From a virus, in the IMG/VR virus record IMGVR_UViG_3300030333_003276, positions 16,285 through 42,309 of that record: DNA of 26,025 nt; one strand, 5' to 3'. Shown piece after piece: positions 1 through 24,139 of this stretch. The notes under the pieces were generated by a model. The model saw only the letters and a program-made list of their open reading frames with translations. It ran no database searches and was not told the origin of the DNA. The position numbers and the translations under genes are program-made. Each line of letters starts with the position of its first letter. The first letter of the stretch is position 1.

Positions 1-2999
1 TAAGAGCTTAATTTATCTAATGATTTAACTTCTATAAATTCCCTAAACTGCTTAAGCACATACGGATCTCTAAACAAATCTCCAAACATACCGCCTTTTC
101 CAGCATCGCCCATAACAAAATTTCTTAGATTAACAGCTTCCTCATAAGTAAGGTTCTTGTATCCTCTTTCGGTAATAGTAGGGTTTAAATCTTTTACAAC
201 TCTATGAAAATTATCTATAAATAATTTAACTTCGCCAAAATCAGACTCGTTTACACTTTTACCTGACGCATCTAGTTTTGAAATATCAGGAGTATTTCTA
301 AATAAAAAGAAGTTATTAATAAAATCGTTCATAGTATTGACTTGATTTATATCAAAACTATGCTCTTTCCCTCCTGTTAAAACCTCATAAGCTTCTACTC
401 TTTGTTTATGCTTTAGTATATTATTGTATGTTAAGCTCCATACGTCATTAACAAGAATTAAGTCATCTCTATCTGTTATTTTACGCCAATTTTCTCCATA
501 AACTAAATCCATCATATAGTCAGTATATTCTCTTTGAAGATCTTGAATTTTTTTCTGCATTTCACCATCTATAGTTCCAGCTCCTTCTCTAGAAGCTTTA
601 GCCCTACCAGGAACAATCCAATTATTTTTTACACCTGAATTATATAAAGTCGCAACAGTTTCTTGGATAGACATATCTCCAAAATCATATATATCTGTTA
701 TTCTATTAGATTTTAATATTCCGTCTTCAAATTCATAAGGCTCACCCAATATATCTAAAAGCTGTTTCATATAATTTTTAAGAAGATTTACAGGAGCATC
801 TGTAGCTCCTACAACTTTTTTATCAAGCCAAGATCCAAGTTTTCCGCCAGTAATATCAGCCATAGTAAGAGGCGCTTCTCCGTCAAATCTCATTGTAGCT
901 ATTTTATTTACAATTTCATAAGCTTGAGCAGGAGTCATTGACTCTGTATTTACTTCATCTCCTGATGAATTTTTATTATACATATCTAAAATTCTTTCAG
1001 CTATATGGTAATTTTCGTATTTCATTAAAGCTTCACTAGGTGTTAATTCTCCAGCATCTACCATATCTTTTACATGTTTATGATATGCAGTCTTCATATC
1101 AGCACCAGGAATAATATTGTCTTGACTTATTTTCTCAAAAGGTTCAAATATTTCTTTAATAGTTTTAAACTCAGGAGTGTCATCTAGCGTTTTCTTGATA
1201 AGATTATCACCTTGTTTTCTATAAGAAGGATCAACCAAAGGACTGCCGTAAGCTTGAATTAAGCCTGGCATTCTATCTATGTCCATACCCCAAGCTCTCA
1301 TACCTCCAGTAATTTTTCTTAACTTAGAGGCTTTTCCATCTATATATTGTTTTATCTTGCCCGTTTCAAAGACTCTATTAAAACTTTCTTTTGTAAAAGG
1401 AGTATGAAAACTATGAGGTTTTCTAGTAAAGAACATAGCTGTAAATATATTTGCTGATATTTCCTGAGGAGTACCCCCAAAAGCCTGTTGTAAACTTTGC
1501 AAGGAAAGCCCATTTTGTTTAAAAGTGCTAATTAAATTAGGCGCATTCATAGCTACTACTCCAGCTGCCATTCTAGGTAAAGACTTCAAAACATCTCTAC
1601 CAAATTCTTTTGTCCATTCTAATGGAGCTCTAAAAAGAAATTTCTTTCTAATATCGCCCATCATATCTCTCATAAGTTTAGTCTGAGCTTTCTTAGCTTG
1701 ATCATCTAATCCTTTCTTTAACCACCAATTAGCCCCTTCATTAGCATACTTCTTCTTTAAACTTCTATTTAAAAGCCCTCCAGATATTTCATTCATTGCT
1801 GTAAGCTGAGCTTGTAACTCTTTTCTATTCATCTTATTAATAGGTTTCCAATAACTTTTAACACTTTGGGAAACTATACTACCTGCTCTTCTTATATGGC
1901 TAGCACTTGTACCCCCTTTAATAAATGAAGCAGGACCCATTAGAACAAAATGATAAGCGTCTGTAGTAGCGTGATGAAGCCAGCTTTGTGCAAAATCTCC
2001 AAAGGTCATATCAAAATCGCCTGTATAAGCAAACTCTCCTTGACCTGGCTCTCCATACATTCTTTTATCTATCTCACCTACTCTTTCTACACCCCAATTC
2101 ATTTTATAAAATGACTCTGCTACAGCTTTTTGAGTACCTATAGCTACCCCTATAGCAGCATCATAAGCCATAGCTGCGCTTATTCTAGAGCCATGTGGAC
2201 CACTTAAAAGAGGTAATTTAGTTCTTTGAAACATATTTTGAAGAATAAACATAGCATCATCTGGGTTATTTCTGCTTATTATATCTATAGTTTCTTTGCT
2301 AATTTGACTTAAAATATCATCATCTGCTACTTTTATAATTTTAGATAAGCTTGTTTTTAATTTATGGTCGATAGTATTTTCTAAAAACTCTCTTGATATT
2401 GCCCCATCTACTTTATGTAAAGCATTTCCATCTCTCATAAGTTTATAGGAATTTTCTATATAGCTAGAAGCAACATCGTCTGTAAAAGAATCAAAAGCAT
2501 CTTTAGGCATGCCTGTAGGTTTTTTAATTTTAGAAACTGATTCGATTATTTCGTCAGTAGATCTTTTTATAGCACCTGCTATAGGGTCAGACACTATTTT
2601 AGCGCCTTGTTTAATACCTTGCTTAGCTAAAAATCCACCAGTTAGGAACTGAGGGATCATACCTAGAGCTGATCCTACAGATAGACCTGCTCTACCCCAG
2701 GCAGACATATCATAGGAAGAACCTGCTGCATCTCCAGCTATCATCTCATGAAACGAACTATAGTCATCTCCATGGATACCTTCCCCAAAAGCATCATAAG
2801 CAGACATAGCTCCCCATGAAGCTTCATTAGTAGCTCCAAAAATAAAATTACCAAAAAAATCTCCGTACCAAGTACCTGTAGTATTTATGGGAGATTGTAC
2901 TTCATCAACACCAAAATTATCGCCCTCATTAATTCTATTTATGGCATTTAATAAATCTTGCCTACTACTACTTCCTTGCCCAAAAGTCCCATATCCCAT
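1..2999 (-). CDS. Giant helical internal-virion-like protein, at least 999 residues (3' end at or beyond window edge)
   Basis: The frame runs from the ATG at 2999 (AAGGAATTAGTCA upstream gives a ribosome site) to the left edge without a stop; the last two bases visible read TA, so the next codon is Tyr or a stop. The product is mostly polar helix with scattered Gly/Ala hydrophobic segments: residues about 98-130 (MSAWGRAGLSVGSALGMIPQ, then FLTGGFLAKQ), and later AAMAYDAAIGVAIGTQKA and SLPRMAAGVVAMNAPNLIST. A long, mixed helical/hydrophobic protein at the end of the ejection gene series fits the largest internal proteins of podovirus-like phages (T7 gp16 type in role), but no lytic or peptidase motif was found. 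The call is by size, pattern and position. Confidence 0.72.
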   Translation of the reverse strand, partial: MGYGTFGQGSSSRQDLLNAINRINEGDNFGVDEVQSPINTTGTWYGDFFGNFIFGATNEASWGAMSAYDAFGEGIHGDDYSSFHEMIAGDAAGSSYDMSAWGRAGLSVGSALGMIPQFLTGGFLAKQGIKQGAKIVSDPIAGAIKRSTDEIIESVSKIKKPTGMPKDAFDSFTDDVASSYIENSYKLMRDGNALHKVDGAISREFLENTIDHKLKTSLSKIIKVADDDILSQISKETIDIISRNNPDDAMFILQNMFQRTKLPLLSGPHGSRISAAMAYDAAIGVAIGTQKAVAESFYKMNWGVERVGEIDKRMYGEPGQGEFAYTGDFDMTFGDFAQSWLHHATTDAYHFVLMGPASFIKGGTSASHIRRAGSIVSQSVKSYWKPINKMNRKELQAQLTAMNEISGGLLNRSLKKKYANEGANWWLKKGLDDQAKKAQTKLMRDMMGDIRKKFLFRAPLEWTKEFGRDVLKSLPRMAAGVVAMNAPNLISTFKQNGLSLQSLQQAFGGTPQEISANIFTAMFFTRKPHSFHTPFTKESFNRVFETGKIKQYIDGKASKLRKITGGMRAWGMDIDRMPGLIQAYGSPLVDPSYRKQGDNLIKKTLDDTPEFKTIKEIFEPFEKISQDNIIPGADMKTAYHKHVKDMVDAGELTPSEALMKYENYHIAERILDMYNKNSSGDEVNTESMTPAQAYEIVNKIATMRFDGEAPLTMADITGGKLGSWLDKKVVGATDAPVNLLKNYMKQLLDILGEPYEFEDGILKSNRITDIYDFGDMSIQETVATLYNSGVKNNWIVPGRAKASREGAGTIDGEMQKKIQDLQREYTDYMMDLVYGENWRKITDRDDLILVNDVWSLTYNNILKHKQRVEAYEVLTGGKEHSFDINQVNTMNDFINNFFLFRNTPDISKLDASGKSVNESDFGEVKLFIDNFHRVVKDLNPTITERGYKNLTYEEAVNLRNFVMGDAGKGGMFGDLFRDPYVLKQFREFIEVKSLDKLSS

Positions 3000-4292: not shown

Positions 4293-5936
4293 TTATTGAG
4301 CCTCCTTCTCATTGATTATCGACTCTAATTCATTTAAAAGTTTTTCATTTTTAATTAAGCTCTGCACCTTATCTACATCCGCTTGCTCTGGGTTAAAAGG
4401 GTCTTCTAATTCAAGATCACCTGATATATCCTGTATAAGGTCTAAACTATCTAGATCTCCTAGAATTGAATGATTATAATATTGCTTTACCCCTATAACA
4501 AATTCTTTAAATGATAAGTCTTCAGGGAATCCAAAGTATTTCCTAGCTAATCTTTCAAACTTAGACATATCTGAGCCTGACTCCATAGCTGCATAATTTT
4601 CCCAAGCTTTATCTACATAGAATACAAAATCGGAATAATCCCCTGTAGAGAATTGTTTAGTTGCAGATAAATATTCACCTCTAGCTGTTTTAATCATCAT
4701 TTCAAATTTAGCTAAATATTCATCAGGTTTTTGAAGAGCCAAATCCTTTTCTCCTATTAGCTCTCCAAACTCTATAGCTATTGTAGCTTTAGCATTTTCA
4801 ACGTTTAATTTGATTTCATTATATTGATCCAACCCTTCCTCAGTGCTTGTATCTATACCAGCTTGGCCGCTTGGATCTGCTAAAATCAATTCTGCTGTTT
4901 TAAGCCCAGAAAGATTTACAGCTCCATCTATTTTAGTAAGCCTTCTATTGAAAAATGTCACAGATCCAGCTTTTAATTTTTTAATCTGACTTTGCTCAGT
5001 TTCTTGCTGATAATATTTATTTTTGCTTACAATCTGCTCTAAATTTATCCTATCTTGTCTTAAATCTCTTAAAGATGCTTGTACAACTGGAGCATTGGCA
5101 TCGAACCATTCTTTCGCAATTTCCCTTTCTCTGTCACTTAAGTCTGGATTTTGAAGTAAAAATGCACTATAGTCTAAATCTGCTGTATCCCATTTAGTAG
5201 GGTCTCCTAGCCCCATTCCTTGATCTCCACCTGCTTGAGCAAATAAACTGCCTTTTCTAACAACTCCTGCTAAAGCTGAATTTATAAGATTAATCTTTTC
5301 TTCTGCATTTTCAGCCATTTGCCAATACATATCGCCTTTTTCTTGATATTGATCTGCTTCATAAGTAGAGAAAGTATCTAATAAATTAAGAGCTTCTTCT
5401 GTAATGTCAGTGTCGTAGAGATTCTCTAACTGAAGACCTGTTTGAAGCCATTTAGCCTCTGCTTCCTTAAGTAATAAATTTGTTTGCTTATGAAGCATTC
5501 TCGCATCTTTATAATGATCAATTTCAGCTGCTAATTCTCTTTCTTCTCTAGCTATAGTTTCCTTAGCATCTAGCTCTTTATCTAATAAATCAAATCTACT
5601 ATCTATTTGTGTCTGAAGATTTGTTGCTTCTGCATCTAGTCTTGTATCTAAGTTTTCAGCATCGGCTGTTAATCTTTTATCTAATAGATCTTCTTGAGAT
5701 GATAGTTTTTTATCAAGCTCTTCTTTCTGAGCATTTAATCTTGTATCTAGTAAAGCAGATTCATGCGTTCTTTGAGCTTCAGCTTGCTCTCTTTCAAAAG
5801 TGTATCTTCTTGCCTCTCTGTCAGCCTCTATCTCCATTTCTTGCTGTCTTAATTGAAAATTTAAGAGTAACTGTGGAAGTTCTGCCATTAACTTACTTAA
5901 AGGGCTTTCTTTTACTACTATATTATAATCAGCCAT
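4293..5936 (-). CDS. Large coiled-coil virion protein with 11-residue repeats
   Basis: A 547-residue, strongly charged helical protein. Residues about 30-180 form a long helix; within it residues 62-127 are six consecutive 11-residue units (LLDTRLNAQKE, ELDKKLSSQED, LLDKRLTADAE, NLDTRLDAEAT, NLQTQIDSRFD, LLDKELDAKET). The 11-residue period gives a right-handed or straight coiled coil. The rest is helical with few hydrophobic runs. No catalytic motif or membrane segment is seen. Such rods are typical of internal or tail proteins assembled next to tail and ejection genes, but other roles, such as structural spacer, are possible. It starts by TAATG overlap with the methyltransferase stop and ends one base before the next gene's ATG. 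Confidence 0.78.
   Translation of the reverse strand: MADYNIVVKESPLSKLMAELPQLLLNFQLRQQEMEIEADREARRYTFEREQAEAQRTHESALLDTRLNAQKEELDKKLSSQEDLLDKRLTADAENLDTRLDAEATNLQTQIDSRFDLLDKELDAKETIAREERELAAEIDHYKDARMLHKQTNLLLKEAEAKWLQTGLQLENLYDTDITEEALNLLDTFSTYEADQYQEKGDMYWQMAENAEEKINLINSALAGVVRKGSLFAQAGGDQGMGLGDPTKWDTADLDYSAFLLQNPDLSDREREIAKEWFDANAPVVQASLRDLRQDRINLEQIVSKNKYYQQETEQSQIKKLKAGSVTFFNRRLTKIDGAVNLSGLKTAELILADPSGQAGIDTSTEEGLDQYNEIKLNVENAKATIAIEFGELIGEKDLALQKPDEYLAKFEMMIKTARGEYLSATKQFSTGDYSDFVFYVDKAWENYAAMESGSDMSKFERLARKYFGFPEDLSFKEFVIGVKQYYNHSILGDLDSLDLIQDISGDLELEDPFNPEQADVDKVQSLIKNEKLLNELESIINEKEAQ
5556..5753 (-). repeat. Six tandem 33-base units encoding hendecad coiled-coil repeats
   Basis: Codons 62-127 of the coiled-coil gene fall into six units of eleven codons with a consensus near xLDxRLxAxxx. 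The DNA units have diverged, so the repeat is clear in protein and only partly visible in DNA. It probably arose by tandem duplication of an 11-codon unit. Confidence 0.8.
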
Positions 5937-6697
5937 TAATTTTTACCTTTCTTTAATATTATGTATTTCATTGAGAAATTCTTCCAACCTAATTTACAAT
6001 TATTACTAACCATGTCTCCAGGGGTATCGTCCTTAACCATACTCTCAAATACTCCAACTCTATTTAAATTTAAGTCCATATTAGGAAATTCAGAAATCTC
6101 ATCTATTATAAATTTTGACTTAGCTACAGCTTTCTTAAAATAGGATTCGTCATATACTGTATATCCGTAAAAACTGCCAACATCTTTTACTGCATTAGGT
6201 TGTTCATCGGCTAATGAAGGTTTTGAAAACATAGTTTTAATAAAAACTAAACCATCTTTATTAACAACCTTAGAACATTCATTAAATACTGACAACAAAT
6301 CATTACAATGCCCAATAGATTCTAGAAAATATATCTTATCAAATGCATTTTCCTTAGATAGAGAATATAATTCGTGAAAATCATGTAATTTAAAAGTTAT
6401 ATTTGACATATTATTTTTCTTAGCAAACTTGGTAGAAAACATAACTTGTTTTGGATCTATATTTATTCCTAATATATTTAAATCAAACAATTTAGAGAAA
6501 TAAAATGCTGGCCCTCCAAATCCTGACCCTGCATCTAATACGCTATCTCCATTCTTTAAATTCATTTTAGCAGCCATAAATGCTAACATTTCAGGAACAT
6601 TTTTAGTCATATAAGACTGTAGAACAAGCCCATATGATTGAAAATATGAAGGATTGTATTTTTTATAATGATCCTTAGTTCTCTGCAAATTATCCAT
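5936..6697 (-). CDS. Class I SAM-dependent methyltransferase
   Basis: A 253-residue protein with a Rossmann-type methyltransferase core: VLDAGSGFGGP at 53-63 (SAM-binding motif I), LGINIDPKQV at 76-85 (motif II acidic region), HDFHEL at 105-110 (post-II) and FLESIGH at 124-130 with KDGLVFIKT after it. The pattern matches small-molecule-type methyltransferases (Methyltransf_11/25 or CFA-synthase-like), not DNA methyltransferases; no DPPY or PC motif occurs. The target is unknown and could be a metabolite, lipid or virion protein. It starts inside the end of the Hint gene (8-base overlap) and its stop overlaps the next ATG (TAATG), so it is tied to the ejection-protein genes. The ribosome site is weak. 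Confidence 0.85.
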   Translation of the reverse strand: MDNLQRTKDHYKKYNPSYFQSYGLVLQSYMTKNVPEMLAFMAAKMNLKNGDSVLDAGSGFGGPAFYFSKLFDLNILGINIDPKQVMFSTKFAKKNNMSNITFKLHDFHELYSLSKENAFDKIYFLESIGHCNDLLSVFNECSKVVNKDGLVFIKTMFSKPSLADEQPNAVKDVGSFYGYTVYDESYFKKAVAKSKFIIDEISEFPNMDLNLNRVGVFESMVKDDTPGDMVSNNCKLGWKNFSMKYIILKKGKN

Positions 6698-7991
6698 TAT
6701 CTTTCTTCATTTTATGATTCTTACCTAGGTAGCTAAATATCCCTAACCAAAATTTTCTTAAAGGCTCAAATACCCATCCTATTCCTTTTTTATGATAGTA
6801 CCATTTCGCCCAAGACTTAGCAGGGTTTACAAATAAATATTTAAAGAACCATTTGACAACCTTATACTTTCTCATAAGCGGAACTACAACTTGAGCTAAC
6901 TTGTAATAGCCAGACCTATTTTCATCATCCATCATCTTGTCTCTATACTTACGGACATCTTTATTTAAACCCTTTTTCTCCTCAACTTCAAGAACAATAA
7001 AACAGCATTTATTATGAACTAAATATCCATCTGCATTATATGTATGGTCTCCAGATAAAGCAAAATTATATAATTGCATTTCAGGGTCACCTGATTTTAA
7101 TGAAATACTCTCTATTTTTACTTGGTCGCTAGAAGTTATTAGTATATCTCCAACATCTAAAGTACCTATAGATGACTCATCTGAAAAAGCGACATGATTT
7201 TCTTTTAAAGTAGCCTTAGGATTAATAGATTTCCAACCTTCTTTAGTCATAAAAGGGTGTTCCTCTGTAACAAAGTAATTGCCTCCATTAATAGAATATA
7301 GTCTTCTTTTCCCTAGTTTAGTGCGATCAAGAGCTAAAACCTCATTATCCCCACTTGCACCTTTAACAGATTCCCCAACTTTTATATCTTCTATATTTTT
7401 CAATGAATCATCAGACATAAGAACTTTTGTTCCAGCAATAAAACAACTGTCGTTATCTGCAGCGTCTTTAGAAATATCATACTGCGCTATTTGCATTACA
7501 CTATCATAAAAATCATCCATAGCACTTCGCTCAGCTTGATAAACCCCCATTTGATATTCAGCCTCAGTTCCTGCAATTCCTTTTTCATATTGAGTAAACA
7601 ATTGATTTGCTGAAGACCCTACCATATCAAGCATACTTTGCTTTGTATAATCTAAACCTCCATGTGTTGCCATATTTGTTTGAGAAATCCCCGAACTATA
7701 CTGATTCATGCTTTTTGAAATGTTTTTACCCATTTCTCTACTACTTTTAGCATATGTATCCTGAAGATCTCTAACTCCTTGTTCTCTTTTTATACCAGCA
7801 AATGTGGCCCCAGATAAGTCTGGTGCAGTTAGATACTCTTTATAATCACCTAGTTCTGGAAAATATTCATCTATAAAGGTATCTAATTGCGCTGGAGTCC
7901 CTGTAAATGCATCAAAAAGGTCGTCATAATCAGGACCTGAACCTGTAGAAACAGGCATTGTAAAATCGTAATCATAATTTTGGTCTGGCAT
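6690..7991 (-). CDS. Virion-associated protein interrupted by a Hint (intein-like) autoprocessing domain
   Basis: A 433-residue protein with three parts. Residues 1-182 are polar and helical, rich in Ser, Gln and Met, like tail internal proteins. Residues 183-327 form a complete Hint domain: CFIAGTKVLM (Cys183, block A), VTEEHPFMT (Thr242, His245, block B), and LYNFALSGDHTYNADG then YLVHN (His326, Asn327, blocks F and G). No homing endonuclease is inserted. Residue +1 is Lys328, not Cys, Ser or Thr, so ordinary protein splicing is unlikely; cleavage at either end remains possible, as in bacterial intein-like (BIL A) domains. Residues 328-433 are basic and aromatic (VVKWFFKYLFVNP, KSWAKWYYHKK) and may act on membranes. 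The last eight bases overlap the methyltransferase start. Confidence 0.85.
   Translation of the reverse strand: MPDQNYDYDFTMPVSTGSGPDYDDLFDAFTGTPAQLDTFIDEYFPELGDYKEYLTAPDLSGATFAGIKREQGVRDLQDTYAKSSREMGKNISKSMNQYSSGISQTNMATHGGLDYTKQSMLDMVGSSANQLFTQYEKGIAGTEAEYQMGVYQAERSAMDDFYDSVMQIAQYDISKDAADNDSCFIAGTKVLMSDDSLKNIEDIKVGESVKGASGDNEVLALDRTKLGKRRLYSINGGNYFVTEEHPFMTKEGWKSINPKATLKENHVAFSDESSIGTLDVGDILITSSDQVKIESISLKSGDPEMQLYNFALSGDHTYNADGYLVHNKCCFIVLEVEEKKGLNKDVRKYRDKMMDDENRSGYYKLAQVVVPLMRKYKVVKWFFKYLFVNPAKSWAKWYYHKKGIGWVFEPLRKFWLGIFSYLGKNHKMKKDNG
7011..7445 (-). other. Hint/BIL-type domain coding segment
   Basis: This segment encodes residues 183-327 of the preceding entry, from the block A Cys to the block G Asn. 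All catalytic residues for the N-S acyl shift (Cys1, block B Thr and His) and for Asn cyclisation (His-Asn end) are present. The host protein remains in frame on both sides, and the flanking codons show no base-composition break, so the domain is old or well ameliorated. The residue after Asn is Lys. Confidence 0.85.
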
Positions 7992-8007: not shown

Positions 8008-8529
8008 TTACTGTACTTTATTTTTAGAACCTATGTCTTCCAAAGAACCCCAATCCCAAGGATCAGTCATTAAATCTTTTATTTTTGCACTATCAGGAGG
8101 TACATATGCTGTACTACCCTTAGTAGCTTCAGTCGCAGCAGCAGTTTTAGCAGCCTCTGATGCGGAAGCGTATTCTTTTGCATAAGCACCAGTACCCGCA
8201 AGAAGAGCAGCTTGTAAAGCTCCTCCTACAGCTTCTTCGCTAAAGAATTTCTTATCAGCTACAGCATCCGCTCTTGCTCCTTTATAAAATTTACCACCCG
8301 TAACATCTCCAGCTATAGCGGAACCTATTCCTCTTCCAGCTAAGCTTCCTAATCCTCCAAGTACTGCAGCTGCGCCCCAACCTACTCCAGGCACCATAGC
8401 TAACAATCCTCCTAAAGAAGAGCCTACTGTTGACCATAAATTTTGTTTTTCTAAATCTTTTTGCAGCTGCCTCTTTTCTTCAGCTGTGTCTTGTTGCAAT
8501 TTGTATGCTTGATATCCTCTTGTTGCCAT
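8008..8529 (-). CDS. Gly/Ala-rich hydrophobic protein, probable internal virion (ejection) protein
   Basis: A 173-residue protein. After a basic, Gln-rich helical N terminus (about 1-30) come Gly/Ala-rich hydrophobic segments: GSSLGGLLAMVPGVGWGAAA through LGGLGSLAGRGIGSAIAG (about 35-74) and EAVGGALQAALLAGTGAYA (about 97-118). The C terminus is acidic and polar. Such small amphipathic Gly/Ala-rich proteins placed next to tail and large helical genes are common among internal or ejection proteins that enter the host envelope with the DNA. That role is inferred from composition and position. A strong GGAG site supports the start. Confidence 0.65.
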   Translation of the reverse strand: MATRGYQAYKLQQDTAEEKRQLQKDLEKQNLWSTVGSSLGGLLAMVPGVGWGAAAVLGGLGSLAGRGIGSAIAGDVTGGKFYKGARADAVADKKFFSEEAVGGALQAALLAGTGAYAKEYASASEAAKTAAATEATKGSTAYVPPDSAKIKDLMTDPWDWGSLEDIGSKNKVQ

Positions 8530-8530
8530 T

Positions 8531-9331
8531 TTAACTCCTATATTTGTATCTTACTATTATTTTTGCGGTAACATCGCTTGTACTGTTACCCTCTACTGTA
8601 GCTAAAACAACTTTAGGGTCGCTACCAGCCTCTATAAATTTTGTATTTATATCCATAGATTTTTTTATTATAGCATCGCTAACAGCACTCATTGTGCCTG
8701 CGTGACTAGCTATTAATACTCCATTTGACAAATCTCCTCCATCAGAGCCATTACTATCATCCATATCATAAGCCATAATGTGAGCAGCTAAACTATTTGA
8801 TGCATCGCAACACCCGTAGAAATCTGCCGATATAACTTCTATATCTAAAGGTAATATCCAATAACACAATAAATAATCTACCGAATTAGAACTAATACTT
8901 AACGATGTTGCAGGATCTGTACCTGTTCCCAAGCCTATTAAATCTGGAGCTGCTGCTCCTGAAGCGTCAAACTTGCTTGTATATAAACAATGATGTTCTC
9001 CTGCAGTAACACTTGCATCATGTATATTAAATTCCATTATTTTGAATATATTATCTTCTAACTCTCTCCCTTTGATAAAATTTTCTCCAGAAGAAGCATC
9101 TTTTAAGTCCCCTTTAGGATAAGCTGCCATAGGTATAGTAAATATACCTCCATTTATCTTAACAAACATTTGAGGACCAAAAGAAGTTAACCATATTTCA
9201 GGTCTATTTTCCTTTAAATCTTTGGCTAAAGGTACGCCTTTTTTAACTTTATTAGTAATCCTTTCTTGTTTTCTGTTATAAATATTAGCAACTTGCCTTT
9301 CTAATAAAGTTGTTTTCCCTAGCTCTTTCAT
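8531..9331 (-). CDS. Virion protein with basic helical N terminus and beta-rich C terminus
   Basis: A 266-residue protein whose ATG overlaps the previous stop (TAATG), indicating co-translation with the tail protein. Residues 1-45 are basic and helical (RKQERITNKVKKG); the remainder is beta-rich with Gly, Ser, Asp and Ala (DLIGLGTGTDPATSLSISSN) and an HIMAYDMDDSNGSDGG acidic loop. Cys residues occur at about five positions, including a CC pair (GCCDASN). The layout of a helical anchor plus beta domain fits a tail fibre or other accessory tail protein. No named domain is recognised. Confidence 0.7.
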   Translation of the reverse strand: MKELGKTTLLERQVANIYNRKQERITNKVKKGVPLAKDLKENRPEIWLTSFGPQMFVKINGGIFTIPMAAYPKGDLKDASSGENFIKGRELEDNIFKIMEFNIHDASVTAGEHHCLYTSKFDASGAAAPDLIGLGTGTDPATSLSISSNSVDYLLCYWILPLDIEVISADFYGCCDASNSLAAHIMAYDMDDSNGSDGGDLSNGVLIASHAGTMSAVSDAIIKKSMDINTKFIEAGSDPKVVLATVEGNSTSDVTAKIIVRYKYRS

Positions 9332-11979
9332 TATTTAGCTCTCTTTAATCTGTATATAATAGATATATCATTGATATAAAATCCAGAAATATTAGTTCCA
9401 GATAAAAGTAATTTAAGAGTGTATAAATTATTCAAATAAGTATCAGAACCATCGGCTACAAAATCTTGAGTCGTCCATTGAGTTTTCATTGTAGCAAAAG
9501 TTCCAGAAAAAGACCTGGTTTGTCCATCTTCTTTCCCATCAGTTTCATACTTTAGTAAAGGTACAGTACCTGCACTTTTATATGTAACTCTTACTTTAAA
9601 AACTTTTTTTCTTACTCCTGCATTACCGAAATCTATATCTTTTGTACTCATATTGGAAGCTCCGTCATTTCCTCCTGTACTATTGTATTTTTTTATAGCG
9701 GTAGTACCATCTTTAAGTATAAGAGTTCCATCATAGTCGTTAACGAAATTAGTCCCATCAGAGTTATCTGCAAGTAAATCAGACGCTTTAGACCAAGAAA
9801 AAACTTTTAAATTAAATACATAACAATTGCCGTTAGTTCCACCTGAAGAAGAATCTCCCCTTATTATTAAATTGTTATTTATAGGGTCGTATCCTATGCT
9901 AGCTGTATCAGTTATAAAAGTAGCCCAATCACTAGCCGATATTCTTTTTCCTACTTTACCATCAAATAAATCTACCAACTGCTTACCATCGTACATATAT
10001 GCGCCATTTTTATTTACAAAAGCTACTCCTAATTCAGTCCTTACTGATGCAGTAGGATTGGGTATACCTCTATGCTGAAAAGTTGCTTCAAGAAACTCGA
10101 CATCTTGAGATACATTTATAATATATAAATTATTCTTTTTAAATTGTAGTACTCTGTCAGCAAATTCTTCAAGCTTTACAATATCATCTCCATCGTTAAC
10201 TACAGCTTCTAATACACTTGTTCCAGGCATAACATCAAATGAATTTGTTGGAGACTTTATCATAGCATCTCCTTTATGCTCTAGTCTTATACCATCAGTT
10301 AAATCACTTCCTGCATCGTGATGAAGCAATACATTTCCATAATAAGTTTTCCTATTAGCTACTACAGCTGTTTTATATTTTGCAAATGAACAAGATTCGT
10401 CTGGAAGCATGCCTGATAGCGCTGAGTATGTATATAACCTAGGCTCAGCATCAAATTCAATCATATTGTCATTTCTCACATGAAATACACCACCTATTGA
10501 ATTTTCTACCCAAGGTTCATAAGTATCTACATTTGCCTTTTTAACGCCTAAATCTAAGTCTGCCTCTAATAATAGATAAACTTCATCTTCAGGTATTACC
10601 GCAGAAGTTACATGTTGCCAATATATTCTAATGCCTGTAATTCTTTTATCTAAGCTTGTAGGGTTTAGTGTAATCCTATATCTTTTTTTAGAATTTTCCC
10701 AAACACTATCATAGCCTAAAAATCCTCTTAAAGGACTTTCTTGTTTTCCATCATATATATAGCTATACCAATACTTTTTATAACCAGTTATTAAGCCATC
10801 ATCAAATTTATTTGCACTTACAGCAAGTTGCACTATTCCCGCTGCTAAAGCAGAGCCAGGCCAACCCGTGTCAGTAGCATATGCATCATCTGCTTCGTAA
10901 CTTTGATAAGGAGACTCAAGCACTGTTGGTTCTGCTCTAGGAGGCCTTTTTACCCATTGATCTGTTAAATACCATTCATTATAGCTTTGCTTTGCATTTG
11001 AGCAAGCTGACTCAGTAGGGGCGTTATTAAACCTACCTCTTTTTATATGGCCATACCATTTGCAAGAAGAATTGTTCCCAAAATTACCATCACCAACTCT
11101 AAGATCTCCATCAGCTTGAAAGAAAACAGGCTCTGGAATTGACGAACCTCCAATGTTTTTAGCTGAAGATGTATGGTCCCAATTATGACTATATATATAA
11201 AAATTGTTACTAGCATCAGCATCCATATAAACTAAATAATGATCTCCTACTGTAGCATTTTCTAAATTATGTAACTGCCATGCATCAGCATTGTCCCAAT
11301 CATTGTCAGTCCCCCCAGATAGATTAGTGGTAAGTAAAGCGCTAGCTGAAGGCTGTTCTGCTACATAAGCTTGTTCTAAATCTAGAGTAGAGCCACTTGC
11401 ATCATCTACATCACCACCAGACCAAGATCCATTATAGTTTTGAGTACCTGTAATGCTAACTGCTGCTCCATTATTAATTCCATGAGCGGAAGCTGTAGTT
11501 ACCTGAACATCACTACCATCTCCATCTGTACCATCAGCAAAATTTGTTATACGATGCTTAGCTTCTGTCACTATACTATTAGATGTATTGCTAACCACGA
11601 TACCTTCGGAACTATCAGTTGTATTTTTTAATGTAGCTCCTATCATTTTATTTACAGGGAAAGACTCTCCGCTATCACTCAAATAACTAGCACCGCTACT
11701 AGCATCATGATTTCCAGATATCCCTGAACCATTATCGCATTTTCCAGAAGCATTTTGAATATCAGAACTCCATGCAAATAAGCCCATAGTTCCAGGATTT
11801 ACAGCGTAACTTGAAGTTGTTTTATAGGAATCAAAAGGACCTAGAACAGTTAATTGCCCTAGTTGATCTACACGAAAATTATCAAGTGCAGAAAACTCAT
11901 GATCCATAATATCTCTAGCGTCAGCTTCACTGTTTAAGCCGCCATGAAATTGATTAATAACTAATGATTGCTTAGCCAT
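9331..11979 (-). CDS. Large tail protein, probable nozzle/tail-tube-like virion component
   Basis: An 882-residue protein beginning VINQFHGGLNSEADARDI, a pattern I associate with large structural proteins of podovirus-like phages ('F.GGLN...DARDI...E'). Residues about 155-207 look like an inserted beta domain (TTASAHGINNGAAVSITGTQ, then NYNGSW) of a kind repeated in many virion proteins. The middle and C-terminal parts are beta-rich with alternating hydrophobic strands and contain RGIPNPTASVRTELGVAFVN and GAYMYDGKQLVDLFDGKVGK, which recall beta-propeller-like tail-nozzle proteins such as T7 gp12-type. No signal peptide, membrane segment or enzyme motif is seen. The ribosome site is weak, so coupling with an upstream frame is likely. 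The exact nozzle role is inference. Confidence 0.72.
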   Translation of the reverse strand: MAKQSLVINQFHGGLNSEADARDIMDHEFSALDNFRVDQLGQLTVLGPFDSYKTTSSYAVNPGTMGLFAWSSDIQNASGKCDNGSGISGNHDASSGASYLSDSGESFPVNKMIGATLKNTTDSSEGIVVSNTSNSIVTEAKHRITNFADGTDGDGSDVQVTTASAHGINNGAAVSITGTQNYNGSWSGGDVDDASGSTLDLEQAYVAEQPSASALLTTNLSGGTDNDWDNADAWQLHNLENATVGDHYLVYMDADASNNFYIYSHNWDHTSSAKNIGGSSIPEPVFFQADGDLRVGDGNFGNNSSCKWYGHIKRGRFNNAPTESACSNAKQSYNEWYLTDQWVKRPPRAEPTVLESPYQSYEADDAYATDTGWPGSALAAGIVQLAVSANKFDDGLITGYKKYWYSYIYDGKQESPLRGFLGYDSVWENSKKRYRITLNPTSLDKRITGIRIYWQHVTSAVIPEDEVYLLLEADLDLGVKKANVDTYEPWVENSIGGVFHVRNDNMIEFDAEPRLYTYSALSGMLPDESCSFAKYKTAVVANRKTYYGNVLLHHDAGSDLTDGIRLEHKGDAMIKSPTNSFDVMPGTSVLEAVVNDGDDIVKLEEFADRVLQFKKNNLYIINVSQDVEFLEATFQHRGIPNPTASVRTELGVAFVNKNGAYMYDGKQLVDLFDGKVGKRISASDWATFITDTASIGYDPINNNLIIRGDSSSGGTNGNCYVFNLKVFSWSKASDLLADNSDGTNFVNDYDGTLILKDGTTAIKKYNSTGGNDGASNMSTKDIDFGNAGVRKKVFKVRVTYKSAGTVPLLKYETDGKEDGQTRSFSGTFATMKTQWTTQDFVADGSDTYLNNLYTLKLLLSGTNISGFYINDISIIYRLKRAK

Positions 11980-19275: not shown

Positions 19276-20832
19276 TTATACCCAAAGGGCGTGTGTTTCA
19301 GGGCAGCACCATTCCATACCAGCTTCAGTAAGGATTTGGTCTACTCTACGATCGACCCCAGAGTTCTCTAAAGTTTGAACTCCCACGTAGACACCTGTGT
19401 CTCTGTTAATACCATTACCAACTAATGGACGATATGCACAATATTTCATGTTAATACCTAACATTTTAACATTTGTGCTGTCTAAGTGAACGTTTCTTGC
19501 AACATTCATATCACCATATACAGTTGATATAGTTGAAATATCTACACCAAACACTTTCTTCTTACCTGTTAAAGACATTTCTGCTCTTAGGTTTGGAGAT
19601 TGTTGTAGATTATTCATGAAATATCCAGATAATTTATGTAGCCAATTGTATGTTGTTGTATCACAGAAAAATACAGTTGAACCAGCATTATTATATCTAG
19701 GATCTAGCATTGCTGATAGATCTTCCAAGAAATCATCTTGTGTTTTAGTGCCGTGAGGTAATGTGAAAGAATTACCATATTGAGAAATATAGTCAACTGC
19801 TCCTTGAGTAGTACCATAAGTAGCACTTTGTCTACCAAATAGTAGAGAATTTTCAATATCCCATTTGTGCTCAATTAGCTTTTCTTTCCATATTCTTGCC
19901 CACTCATCGCCTTCATACTTAAGAACAGTAGCTCTATCTGTATTGTTCATCACTGCTGATGTTTTCCAGATTTGAGTTTGTCCGTGAGCAGTACTGTAAG
20001 GCTGATCTTGCCATGTTTCTGGGTAACCAGAACCAGCAGCGTGAGCAGTACCTACTACATAACATTTGAAAGACTCCATAAATTCAGTAGAGTTTGTTAC
20101 AGATGTTATTGAGGCATCGTGCCCTAAACCGCCACTCACACCACCTGTAGCAGCATCAGTAGTAGTAGCGTTAGTAAATCTAACATTACCACCAGAAGCT
20201 TTCACACAAGTAGCATTTACAACAGCTTTATTTACAACTGCACTATTAGCTGTAGCAGCTTCTGGATATATATCCATATCTACAGAATTAACTTTCCATA
20301 GAGTGTATCCAGTTACTGTACCAGCTTGTGAGCCAGTTGTACCGCCGCTTTCAGCGTGAGGCACTTTGATTAATTGACCAGGAACAAAAAACTTAGGCTG
20401 AGTTCCATTAACACCCTCAGCGTAGCTTATTGTTTGGCCATATATATTACTATGATTACCATTTGCATTATAATCAGTAAAGAAACTAAAAGTATATATA
20501 TCTCCTGCAGCTGGATTTAAATCACCAGCATCAGGCGCTGTTCCACTAGGTGTAGCAGAAGCAGATGAGCTTACATCACTCATATATGCATATCTTTTAG
20601 TATAAGACGATCTTTTTTCAGAAAATTTGAAAGAAGGATCATCTGTAGGTTTTTTAGCAACCATGCTAACAAACCTGAAGAACGGATCTTGAGATAAAGC
20701 TAACTCAGATACATAATCGCCGAAATTATACTTTCTGCGTAACGCACCCGTATTTAACTGTACCGAAGATTCGCCTCTTTCTATTGAACCAGAAGTATAA
20801 TTACTCCCAGTTACATTTAGAATATCAGACAT
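19276..20832 (-). CDS. Major capsid protein
   Basis: A 518-residue protein directly after portal and scaffold, the expected place for the head shell protein. N-terminal residues about 25-80 (LNTGALRRKYNFGDYV, then DPFFRFVS and FKFSEKR) look like the N-arm/E-loop start of HK97-fold capsid proteins. The stretch from about 85 to 265 is Gly/Thr/Ser/Ala-rich and beta-like, probably an extended or inserted surface domain. From about 300 a helical region (EWARIWKEKLIEHKWDIENS) and FLEDLSAMLDPRYNN resemble the spine helix and P/A domain of large marine-phage capsid proteins. Its mean composition (Asn, Thr, Tyr, few Lys) differs from the flanking scaffold. The strong AAGGAG site lies partly in a hairpin, suggesting controlled high expression. 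The HK97 fold is inferred from position and pattern, not from a match. Confidence 0.85.
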   Translation of the reverse strand: MSDILNVTGSNYTSGSIERGESSVQLNTGALRRKYNFGDYVSELALSQDPFFRFVSMVAKKPTDDPSFKFSEKRSSYTKRYAYMSDVSSSASATPSGTAPDAGDLNPAAGDIYTFSFFTDYNANGNHSNIYGQTISYAEGVNGTQPKFFVPGQLIKVPHAESGGTTGSQAGTVTGYTLWKVNSVDMDIYPEAATANSAVVNKAVVNATCVKASGGNVRFTNATTTDAATGGVSGGLGHDASITSVTNSTEFMESFKCYVVGTAHAAGSGYPETWQDQPYSTAHGQTQIWKTSAVMNNTDRATVLKYEGDEWARIWKEKLIEHKWDIENSLLFGRQSATYGTTQGAVDYISQYGNSFTLPHGTKTQDDFLEDLSAMLDPRYNNAGSTVFFCDTTTYNWLHKLSGYFMNNLQQSPNLRAEMSLTGKKKVFGVDISTISTVYGDMNVARNVHLDSTNVKMLGINMKYCAYRPLVGNGINRDTGVYVGVQTLENSGVDRRVDQILTEAGMEWCCPETHALWV

Positions 20833-21835: not shown

Positions 21836-24139
21836 TTACTCAGACTTTTTCTCTCTTTCCAAGTCTTTTCTATAATTCTGTAATAAGTCTTGAGCTCTTG
21901 ACTGCATTAATAAGGCATCATTGCCCATAGTTTGAACTTGATCCTTCATTTTTAAGTCTTGCTCTGTCTCATTTTTTTCCATTTTATGCTTAACTTCTTC
22001 TTTCTTTTTATTAATCTCGACTTCAGCTTGCATAACTTTTCCTTTAATACCAGCTTGAACAAGTTGTCTTTCAAGGGTTTCAATAGTACCTTCCTTATCT
22101 TTAAGAGCTTCTTGTAATTGCCCAAGCTGTCCTTGCATTTGAGCATACATGCTCTTGCGTTTTGCAATTGTCATTTTATTTTTTATATCTGTTTCAGCTA
22201 AGACAGCTATATCGTCAATAACTCCTAACTGCATTAATTGCTTTAATTCTTCTAAATAAGCCCATCTATTTATAGGTAAAGTCGAACCTGATATTACACG
22301 TATGTCAAATTTATGAGCAGATATATCCATAGATTTTCCTATAGCTTCTCCCATATCATTATATATAGGAATATTTATTTCTTGAGTTTTACCTTCCTGT
22401 ATTGCACTAGGCTGTATAATTCTAAATCTTTTATTAGCTGTATAGGTAGCTTGAGCGTAATTAATGACAACTTGACCTAATTGCTTTAAAGCTGGCTCTA
22501 TACATGTAGACATCCATTGCTTAATTCTTCTAGTTCCATATTCATCTAAAGCCAACATACCTCTATAAGTTTCGCTAGCACCTCTAGAATCTCCCATCAT
22601 AGAGCTGTATATTCCTGCTAAATACTCCATGTCTGATTTACCTTCTTGAACTATTTGGAAAAAAGCATTAGATAATGGTGCTGGTTGAACAGGTGTAGGA
22701 GGAGTTACTCCAGGTCTAATAGGAAGCAACGCTCCAGGACTTGATGAATATTTTTCCCAAGTCTCTGTATCTACACTACCTTCTTCATACATCCATCTTA
22801 AGCTAGAACCTAAAGATGCATTATGCACCATAATTTGATGAGCTTTATTTATTTCTTGCTGCTTTCCTATTAAAGGTGCAACAGCACTAATAGGATAAGG
22901 TGTTCCTGTCCATTTAAAGTGAAAAGGGACTATAGGATACTCAGTAACAGATTCTGGTAAAACTTTTTCATACAGTAATTGATCTCCAGCTACACAAGTC
23001 TGTTTTATTCTAGTTGTGTAAAAATCTATTTTATCTATAATATTTTCAGCTATAATAGGTTGTTGTGATAGTATTTTAAATTCTTTTTCAGATATAATTA
23101 CATTTTCTACCTTAGATGCCTCTGCTTGTAATTTACTCATACATTCTTGTTGGTAAACTTGTAATTGTTGCTGCATCATTTGTTGAGCTTTTTCCATTTC
23201 CAACTGATATCTTTCAGGAAGCATTTTTCCTTCTTGTACAGCTAACTCCATTTGTTTTTGCTGTTCTAACATTGAAACTTGCATTTCTTTTTGTTGCTCC
23301 ATAACCATTACTTCGCATTGTTTTGCAAGTTGCTCTAATACTTCTTTATTAGGAGGTATTCTATAAAATAAATTAACATATAAAACTTTTACCTTTTCGT
23401 ATACTTCAAAAAATTCTACTAATACATCTTCTTGTCCACTTGCATCAGACGCATGTCCCATTTGTTCGTTTGCGTCATTATACATAAATAATTTTTGCTC
23501 ATCATCTCCCATCTTCCTAACAGAATAACCTCTTTGGCTTTGCTCATCGCTGCTAGCCTTTTTAATTTTTAATCTACTTTCAGGAAATAGTTTAATTAAA
23601 TGATTTTTAGGAAGAACTTTTCTAATCATAATATATGCTGCATCTTTAAAAAGCATATCTCTTGACTTAGGGTCTATATAAACATCAAATGGCTCAGGTT
23701 GCTGAACTACAACTTCGCCCATTCCATTGTCTGCATTTGGATCTACAGAAACTAGTAAATAGCCCATTCCTTTAGTAACGCAATCATTGACTGCATTATT
23801 ATAAAGAGTTTGCCCATTAGAATTTGCCCAAATATAATCTGATAAATCTGAAATTACAGAAGCAACATCTGTATCAGAACCATCTACTCCAATAGCTTGC
23901 CATCTTGGACTATTTGCTGTAGCATAAAAATTTAACATTTCAACTACAGGAAGAATCCTGTTAATTGTAAATGTAGGCATTCCTTGTTCTTCAAGAGCGT
24001 CTTTTTCTGTTTTAGTTAATTGTTCATCGTGAGCGAATTCGTAACCTTTTTGATTAACAAATTCCCATTGTTTTCTCGTGTATCCATTTGAAAGATTCCA
24101 AAGTTGTCTTACTTCGTCAGCTCTTTTTTTCCTAGCCAT
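21836..24139 (-). CDS. Portal protein (P22-like)
   Basis: A 767-residue protein matching the P22-type portal pattern. Portals form the dodecameric ring at the head vertex through which DNA is packaged and ejected. Seen: an N-terminal helical region, TFTINRILPVVEMLN near 56-70 followed by the NSPRW segment, VTKGMGYLLV near 121, EPFDVYIDPKSRD near 149, a PYPISAVAPLIGKQQEINKA region near 414, and a long charged coiled coil over roughly the last 80 residues. This order is typical of P22-like portals. Residues about 265-346 are an unusual Gln/Met/Glu-rich coiled coil inserted in the wing region. The start has a clear GGAGAATT ribosome site. It sits upstream of scaffold and capsid genes as expected. 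I found no sign of truncation. Confidence 0.9.
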   Translation of the reverse strand: MARKKRADEVRQLWNLSNGYTRKQWEFVNQKGYEFAHDEQLTKTEKDALEEQGMPTFTINRILPVVEMLNFYATANSPRWQAIGVDGSDTDVASVISDLSDYIWANSNGQTLYNNAVNDCVTKGMGYLLVSVDPNADNGMGEVVVQQPEPFDVYIDPKSRDMLFKDAAYIMIRKVLPKNHLIKLFPESRLKIKKASSDEQSQRGYSVRKMGDDEQKLFMYNDANEQMGHASDASGQEDVLVEFFEVYEKVKVLYVNLFYRIPPNKEVLEQLAKQCEVMVMEQQKEMQVSMLEQQKQMELAVQEGKMLPERYQLEMEKAQQMMQQQLQVYQQECMSKLQAEASKVENVIISEKEFKILSQQPIIAENIIDKIDFYTTRIKQTCVAGDQLLYEKVLPESVTEYPIVPFHFKWTGTPYPISAVAPLIGKQQEINKAHQIMVHNASLGSSLRWMYEEGSVDTETWEKYSSSPGALLPIRPGVTPPTPVQPAPLSNAFFQIVQEGKSDMEYLAGIYSSMMGDSRGASETYRGMLALDEYGTRRIKQWMSTCIEPALKQLGQVVINYAQATYTANKRFRIIQPSAIQEGKTQEINIPIYNDMGEAIGKSMDISAHKFDIRVISGSTLPINRWAYLEELKQLMQLGVIDDIAVLAETDIKNKMTIAKRKSMYAQMQGQLGQLQEALKDKEGTIETLERQLVQAGIKGKVMQAEVEINKKKEEVKHKMEKNETEQDLKMKDQVQTMGNDALLMQSRAQDLLQNYRKDLEREKKSE

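Follow-up and report, generated by a model that had tools for sequence, protein, structure and literature searches.

A BIL-like Hint domain with lysine at the +1 position in a protein of an uncultured phage

BIL domains are known chiefly from variable bacterial proteins and from a few ciliate genes. The described systems most similar to the one studied here are the type A BILs, for example that of Clostridium thermocellum (2LWY). They have a Hint fold, a Cys at position 1, a C-terminal His-Asn, no Cys, Ser or Thr at the +1 position and no endonuclease. They are found in a variable, non-conserved part of the host protein (PMC2814812). Type A BILs chiefly cleave (PMC7664689), and they are also able to splice: a freed amine attacks the thioester, with cleavage as the dominant outcome (PMC4031507). 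A second system is BIL2 of Tetrahymena BUBL1, which also has no nucleophile at +1 and lies between two independent domains, in this case the ubiquitin-like domains of a ciliate. According to its depositors, splicing ends in an isopeptide bond with a lysine epsilon-amino group, and transfer to other substrates takes place as well (PMC8616854, section 2.4). The lysine used belongs to the downstream ubiquitin-like domain and is not stated to be the +1 residue.

The DNA which we have analysed (the window) has 26,025 nt, about 26 kb out of a 42.3-kb virus record of IMG/VR, and comes from an uncultured phage. The gene at 6690–7991 (minus strand, as are all the features of its protein) codes for 433 amino acids. 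A helical, acidic N body (residues 1–182, 7446–7991; helices predicted, net charge −19) is followed by a Hint domain (residues 183–327, 7011–7445), which runs from Cys1 to the terminal Asn. Then come Lys328 at the +1 position (7008–7010) and a helical C-terminal domain of CCFI type (residues 329–433, 6693–7007). A first-pass annotation had noticed a Hint domain with its catalytic blocks and a lysine at +1. This observation is real as a whole; what had been overlooked are the two cysteines after Lys328 (KCCFI), with which a separate, conserved end-domain begins. The full-length protein as a query finds only one relative in IMG/VR, and for this reason the Hint, the C-domain and the N body were searched separately. 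Searches of phage records give no confident relative for the N body (best E 0.04).

The identity of the Hint domain is apparent from several results. On its 145 residues Pfam recognizes Hom_end_hint (2.4e-8) and Vint (2.1e-7), both above the cut-off, and the best sequence match in the PDB is the BIL domain 2LWY. A profile made without the window sequence gives 179.7 bits on the Hint protein, and 5000 shuffles of this protein do not exceed 11.2. AlphaFold2 (40 rows) models the Hint with a pLDDT of about 95 and most of the helical C part with about 90; the helical N part has low confidence. When the model is compared with the PDB by Foldseek, significant E-values are found solely for Hint, intein and BIL structures: Tetrahymena BIL2 leads (6Y75 and 6TMM; E 6e-10, TM 0.77 on the target), at only 24% sequence identity to the window Hint, and 2LWY follows. 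In a library of viral structures the top matches are proteins of uncultured Caudovirales phages named 'Hint domain containing protein': Hint-bearing phage proteins have already been seen and named in public data. The catalytic residues listed in the first-pass annotation are all intact and in place: Cys183 (7443–7445), block B from Thr242 to His245 (7257–7268; codons at 7266–7268 and 7257–7259), HTYNADG at residues 316–322 (7026–7046) and His326-Asn327 (7011–7016).

These features place the domain close to the type A BILs, as had also been proposed. The Hint fold, Cys1 and the TxxH of block B are present, the C-terminal His-Asn distinguishes type A from type B, Lys328 takes the place of Cys, Ser or Thr at +1, and the domain is found at a linker position, in a variable region of its host protein. 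Two differences stand out. The family of the window has a fixed basic residue at +1 (Lys, rarely Arg), and its members, with a predicted activity, are found in proteins of phage structural modules ahead of end-domains which resemble the CFI box. Other classes do not fit. A class 1 intein requires Cys, Ser or Thr at +1 and a conserved site in an essential protein; here we find Lys328 and a Hint which lies in, or replaces, a variable linker. A mobile intein would carry a homing endonuclease, and the 145 residues hold neither an insert nor an endonuclease domain. In type B BILs and Hedgehog-type domains no C-terminal Asn motif is expected, and His-Asn is present. The Hint of a polymorphic toxin (PT-HINT) is rejected as well: the C-domain matches no toxin family and the next gene codes for a methyltransferase, not for immunity.

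The lysine at +1 had been taken as a special departure. This is not the case: it is the rule in the clade of the window. We have compared 66 distinct relatives, mostly 35–58% identical to the window Hint; Lys is found at +1 in 64 of them and Arg in the other two. Cys1 is present in 65 of 65, Thr242 in 65 of 66, and His245, His326 and Asn327 in all 66. A loss of Cys1 and His-Asn among relatives had been named in advance as evidence against a self-cutting protein, and no such loss was found. All these relatives come from pattern-based scans, with the best 80 taken from each, so that counts are of loci, many of them closely related. In a profile count of all viral copies, +1 is Lys in 68, Arg in 8, Phe in 3 and A, G, I or E in one each; the residues other than Lys and Arg are confined to low-scoring copies. 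Cellular genomes have mostly Lys in the closer relatives, and T, S, A, Q, D, G or N in distant ones. In a tree calculated for 132 Hints, 68 rows fall in the clade of the window, all except one with Lys or Arg at +1; Lys/Arg versus any other residue requires 8 changes in this quick tree, which has many weak branches. Arg replaces Lys in 9 of the 94 rows with either residue, chiefly in the first members of tandem pairs.

The codons indicate at which level the constraint acts. The +1 lysine is coded by 60 AAA and 8 AAG, the same usage as in the background (3486:528), and the His and Asn codons of the His-Asn motif show synonymous variation among the relatives; the constraint therefore acts on the protein. 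The invariance of Cys1, the block B His and His-Asn at mostly 35–58% identity suggests that the activity of the Hint is under selection. Furthermore, 16 ORFs terminate exactly at HNK-stop. They belong to a few separate lineages or more (L056, the L061–L075 group and L170; L numbers denote compared loci). In these proteins His-Asn is fully kept with a single residue after it, which argues that the lysine should be counted with the Hint and not with a linker: it appears to travel with the Hint. By its sequence, the +1 lysine is fixed throughout a large Hint family in environmental viruses, and the window Hint would be a member of a BIL-type subfamily with Lys at +1 in phage proteins. The use of a Hint in virion maturation had been considered unusual. 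Hints in proteins of environmental phages are common: a search of IMG/VR with only the Hint as query, using pattern stretches without the C-terminus, finds at least 231 relatives, and public proteins already carry the name.

Among 50,697 records of isolate phages no Hint with His-Asn and Lys at +1 was recognised. Two Hint proteins of isolate phages were examined, from Providencia phage PSTNGR1 and Achromobacter phage 2-1 (L330:2057–3010 and L331:1583–3025). They lack His-Asn; their Hint is C-terminal and type B-like, with Cys1 kept, and their genes are in tail regions. Tandem Hints are also found (L007, L012–L024, L034, L042, L046, L048 and L051). In many of them the second copy begins right after HNK with (G)CF; it retains Cys1 and a block similar to Ser/Thr-x-x-His but no longer has the C-terminal His-Asn. 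An archaeal protein from a Thermoplasmata MAG (L177) has at least six Hints in tandem; at +1 most of them have Thr or Ser, and the final one has Lys. In the open-access literature we came across no paper that deals with Hint domains in structural proteins of phages, although such papers may exist.

The C-terminal domain, which begins with CCFIVLEV, has a distribution of its own; its identity to relatives is 41–51%. It is 41–43% identical to the C-termini of two proteins of Roseobacter phages, CRP-13 gp55 and CRP-345 gp62, and similar also to C-termini in at least 80 further IMG/VR loci. In all 82 other loci listed it is the last part of a protein which varies elsewhere; it begins with CCFI and has no Hint before it; it mostly stands behind a Gly/Ser-rich stretch, otherwise behind another variable linker. 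The two Roseobacter phage proteins also have a methyltransferase gene directly after their own, and differ from the window in having no Hint, a poly-Ser or poly-Gly linker, unrelated N parts and methyltransferases which BLAST does not align with that of the window. A short overlap with a following methyltransferase-like gene is found in ten loci with a CCFI gene (L123, L124, L128, L134, L142, L155, L161, L163, L004 and L005). A shared system of both genes was considered and dropped: the methyltransferases adjoin about ten CCFI genes and the window gene, but they are not homologous by BLAST. Of 30 CCFI domains, 21 have NCBIfam CFI_box_CTERM (NF041770) as their top match, with E 3e-4 at best. 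The window domain resembles this family distantly in its CFI start and C-terminal position; with 12 bits it does not reach the curated cut-off (40 bits) and is not counted as a member. It is the most divergent of the 30 and lacks the ARYGxGTMD motif.

The first-pass annotation had proposed that the basic C part acts on membranes. This idea finds no support: there is no hydrophobic span (the maximum Kyte-Doolittle mean over 19 residues is 0.78), a fold search with the C-domain model against the PDB gives nothing significant, and the domain is a widespread C-terminal domain of phages which normally occurs without a Hint.

The Hint is also absent from many relatives of other host proteins. After HNK-Gly linkers, other Hint-bearing phage proteins have different end-domains: KIVCTMMN..., CWIARKVYG... 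or a second Hint-like domain. The KIVCTMMN domain is found without Hint in 64 of the 65 distinct copies listed. The same N body and C-domain occur with the Hint in L035 and without it in L256, L258 and L287. A pair of fibre genes, filled in L002 (3176–3634) and empty in L329 (2560–2620), shows the insert as Hint plus Lys, 3–4 codons from the stop: ...NPMPGW-[SC...HN]-K-AGE-stop versus ...NTPEQ-ASE-stop. The 3' flank is conserved and the left border is uncertain by 1–3 residues. In both genes a carbohydrate-binding-like domain is interrupted and seems to resume in the following ORF, which has a ribosome-binding site of its own. Since C-domains and N bodies are found with and without it, the Hint appears to be an optional insert where relatives carry a linker. 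In the window the 10-mer TGTTTTATTG (Cys-Phe-Ile codons) is found on the minus strand where the Hint begins (7436–7445) and again where the CCFI domain begins (6995–7004); it is a possible recombination point for Hint insertion.

The neighbouring genes agree with the first-pass view that the Hint protein belongs to a structural module. A P22-like portal protein (21836–24139, minus strand) marks the module as one of virion genes. Its matches among cultured phages have 22–27% identity, and a protein of 518 amino acids (19276–20832) has no match among cultured phages; the virus appears to have no near relative among them. Also on the minus strand, an 882-aa tail or structural protein (9331–11979) lies upstream of the Hint gene, and a Gly/Ala-rich protein of 173 amino acids (8008–8529) is its direct upstream neighbour in the structural module. 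A 97% identical relative of the 882-aa protein is known, on a contig which stops short of the Hint gene. Downstream, the methyltransferase gene (5936–6697, minus strand) shares 8 bases with the end of the Hint gene and is followed by a series of very large genes. With these neighbours 'structural module' is a fair label for the surroundings, and the protein is probably present in the virion. The very large genes at the window edge, to the left of the Hint gene (window 3–2999, with L327:10209–16298), may code for ejection or other virion proteins.

Most likely the window Hint is an active, type A BIL-like domain which removes itself. The residues present can in principle support both half-reactions of a type A BIL, thioester formation at Cys1 and Asn cyclisation. 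In the reading we prefer, a catalytically competent Hint of this kind at a linker site would use the Lys328 amine to join the N body to the CCFI domain; we give it a probability of about 0.45. Cys183 would attack the Ser182-Cys183 bond (an N-S acyl shift aided by Thr242 and His245) to form a thioester. Asn327 would cyclise with the help of His326 and free Lys328, whose amine would take the N body from the thioester as the Hint departs. The product would be the N body joined to Lys328 and the CCFI domain, with side products from hydrolysis. Since type A BILs can splice by amine attack (PMC4031507), a residue at +1 which is not a nucleophile is compatible with ligation. The divergence of the window CCFI domain, already mentioned, speaks against this explanation.

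A possible but less probable alternative is cleavage alone, which is the reading of the first-pass annotation with its membrane role set aside. The Hint would cut at one junction or at both, and the N body and the basic CCFI domain would become two free proteins. Cleavage is indeed commoner than splicing in the type A BILs tested (PMC4031507, PMC7664689), which also counts against ligation. Proteins ending in HNK-stop or HNKAGE-stop make sense if the N-terminal junction alone matters, and with a single Lys as the C-extein, ligation cannot select for the residues there. Lys, Arg and Phe are N-end-rule destabilising residues in bacteria; at +1 they would suit release followed by degradation. On the other hand, His-Asn is kept even when just one Lys makes up the C-extein, and C-cleavage there would free nothing useful. 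Relatives without Hint hold body and C-domain in one chain, which suggests that their separation is not generally needed; for this reason ligation is ranked before cleavage alone.

It is unlikely that a lysine side chain is the acceptor. In this case the Cys183 thioester would react with the epsilon amine of Lys328, or with a lysine in a different protein, to give an isopeptide bond and thus branched or cross-linked structural proteins. That Lys is fixed at +1, also in proteins which end with it, would fit, as would BIL2 as the top fold match. However, the Arg found in 9 of the 94 rows is incapable of the isopeptide step and speaks against a general rule, and the BIL2 nucleophile is in another domain. 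Least likely of all is an inactive Hint, a structural spacer which tolerates a remnant of the active site: the loss of His-Asn in second tandem copies and in the two isolate phages would agree with it, but full conservation of Cys1, the block B His and His-Asn in the relatives of the window and an intact modelled fold do not.

The first-pass interpretation thus stands for the Hint, its intact residues, its BIL-A likeness and the structural module, and finds no support for the exceptional lysine, the rarity and the action on membranes. This viral set is large, keeps all catalytic residues, has one fixed and unexplained residue, the lysine at +1, and offers natural pairs in which one member has the domain and the other lacks it. 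There is a slim chance that in this large viral subfamily the near-invariant lysine accepts the thioester and yields isopeptide-linked, branched or cross-linked structural proteins, which would be an ATP-independent protein conjugation in virions or during their assembly. With this set, the role of BIL domains for their hosts would become directly testable with a few constructs.
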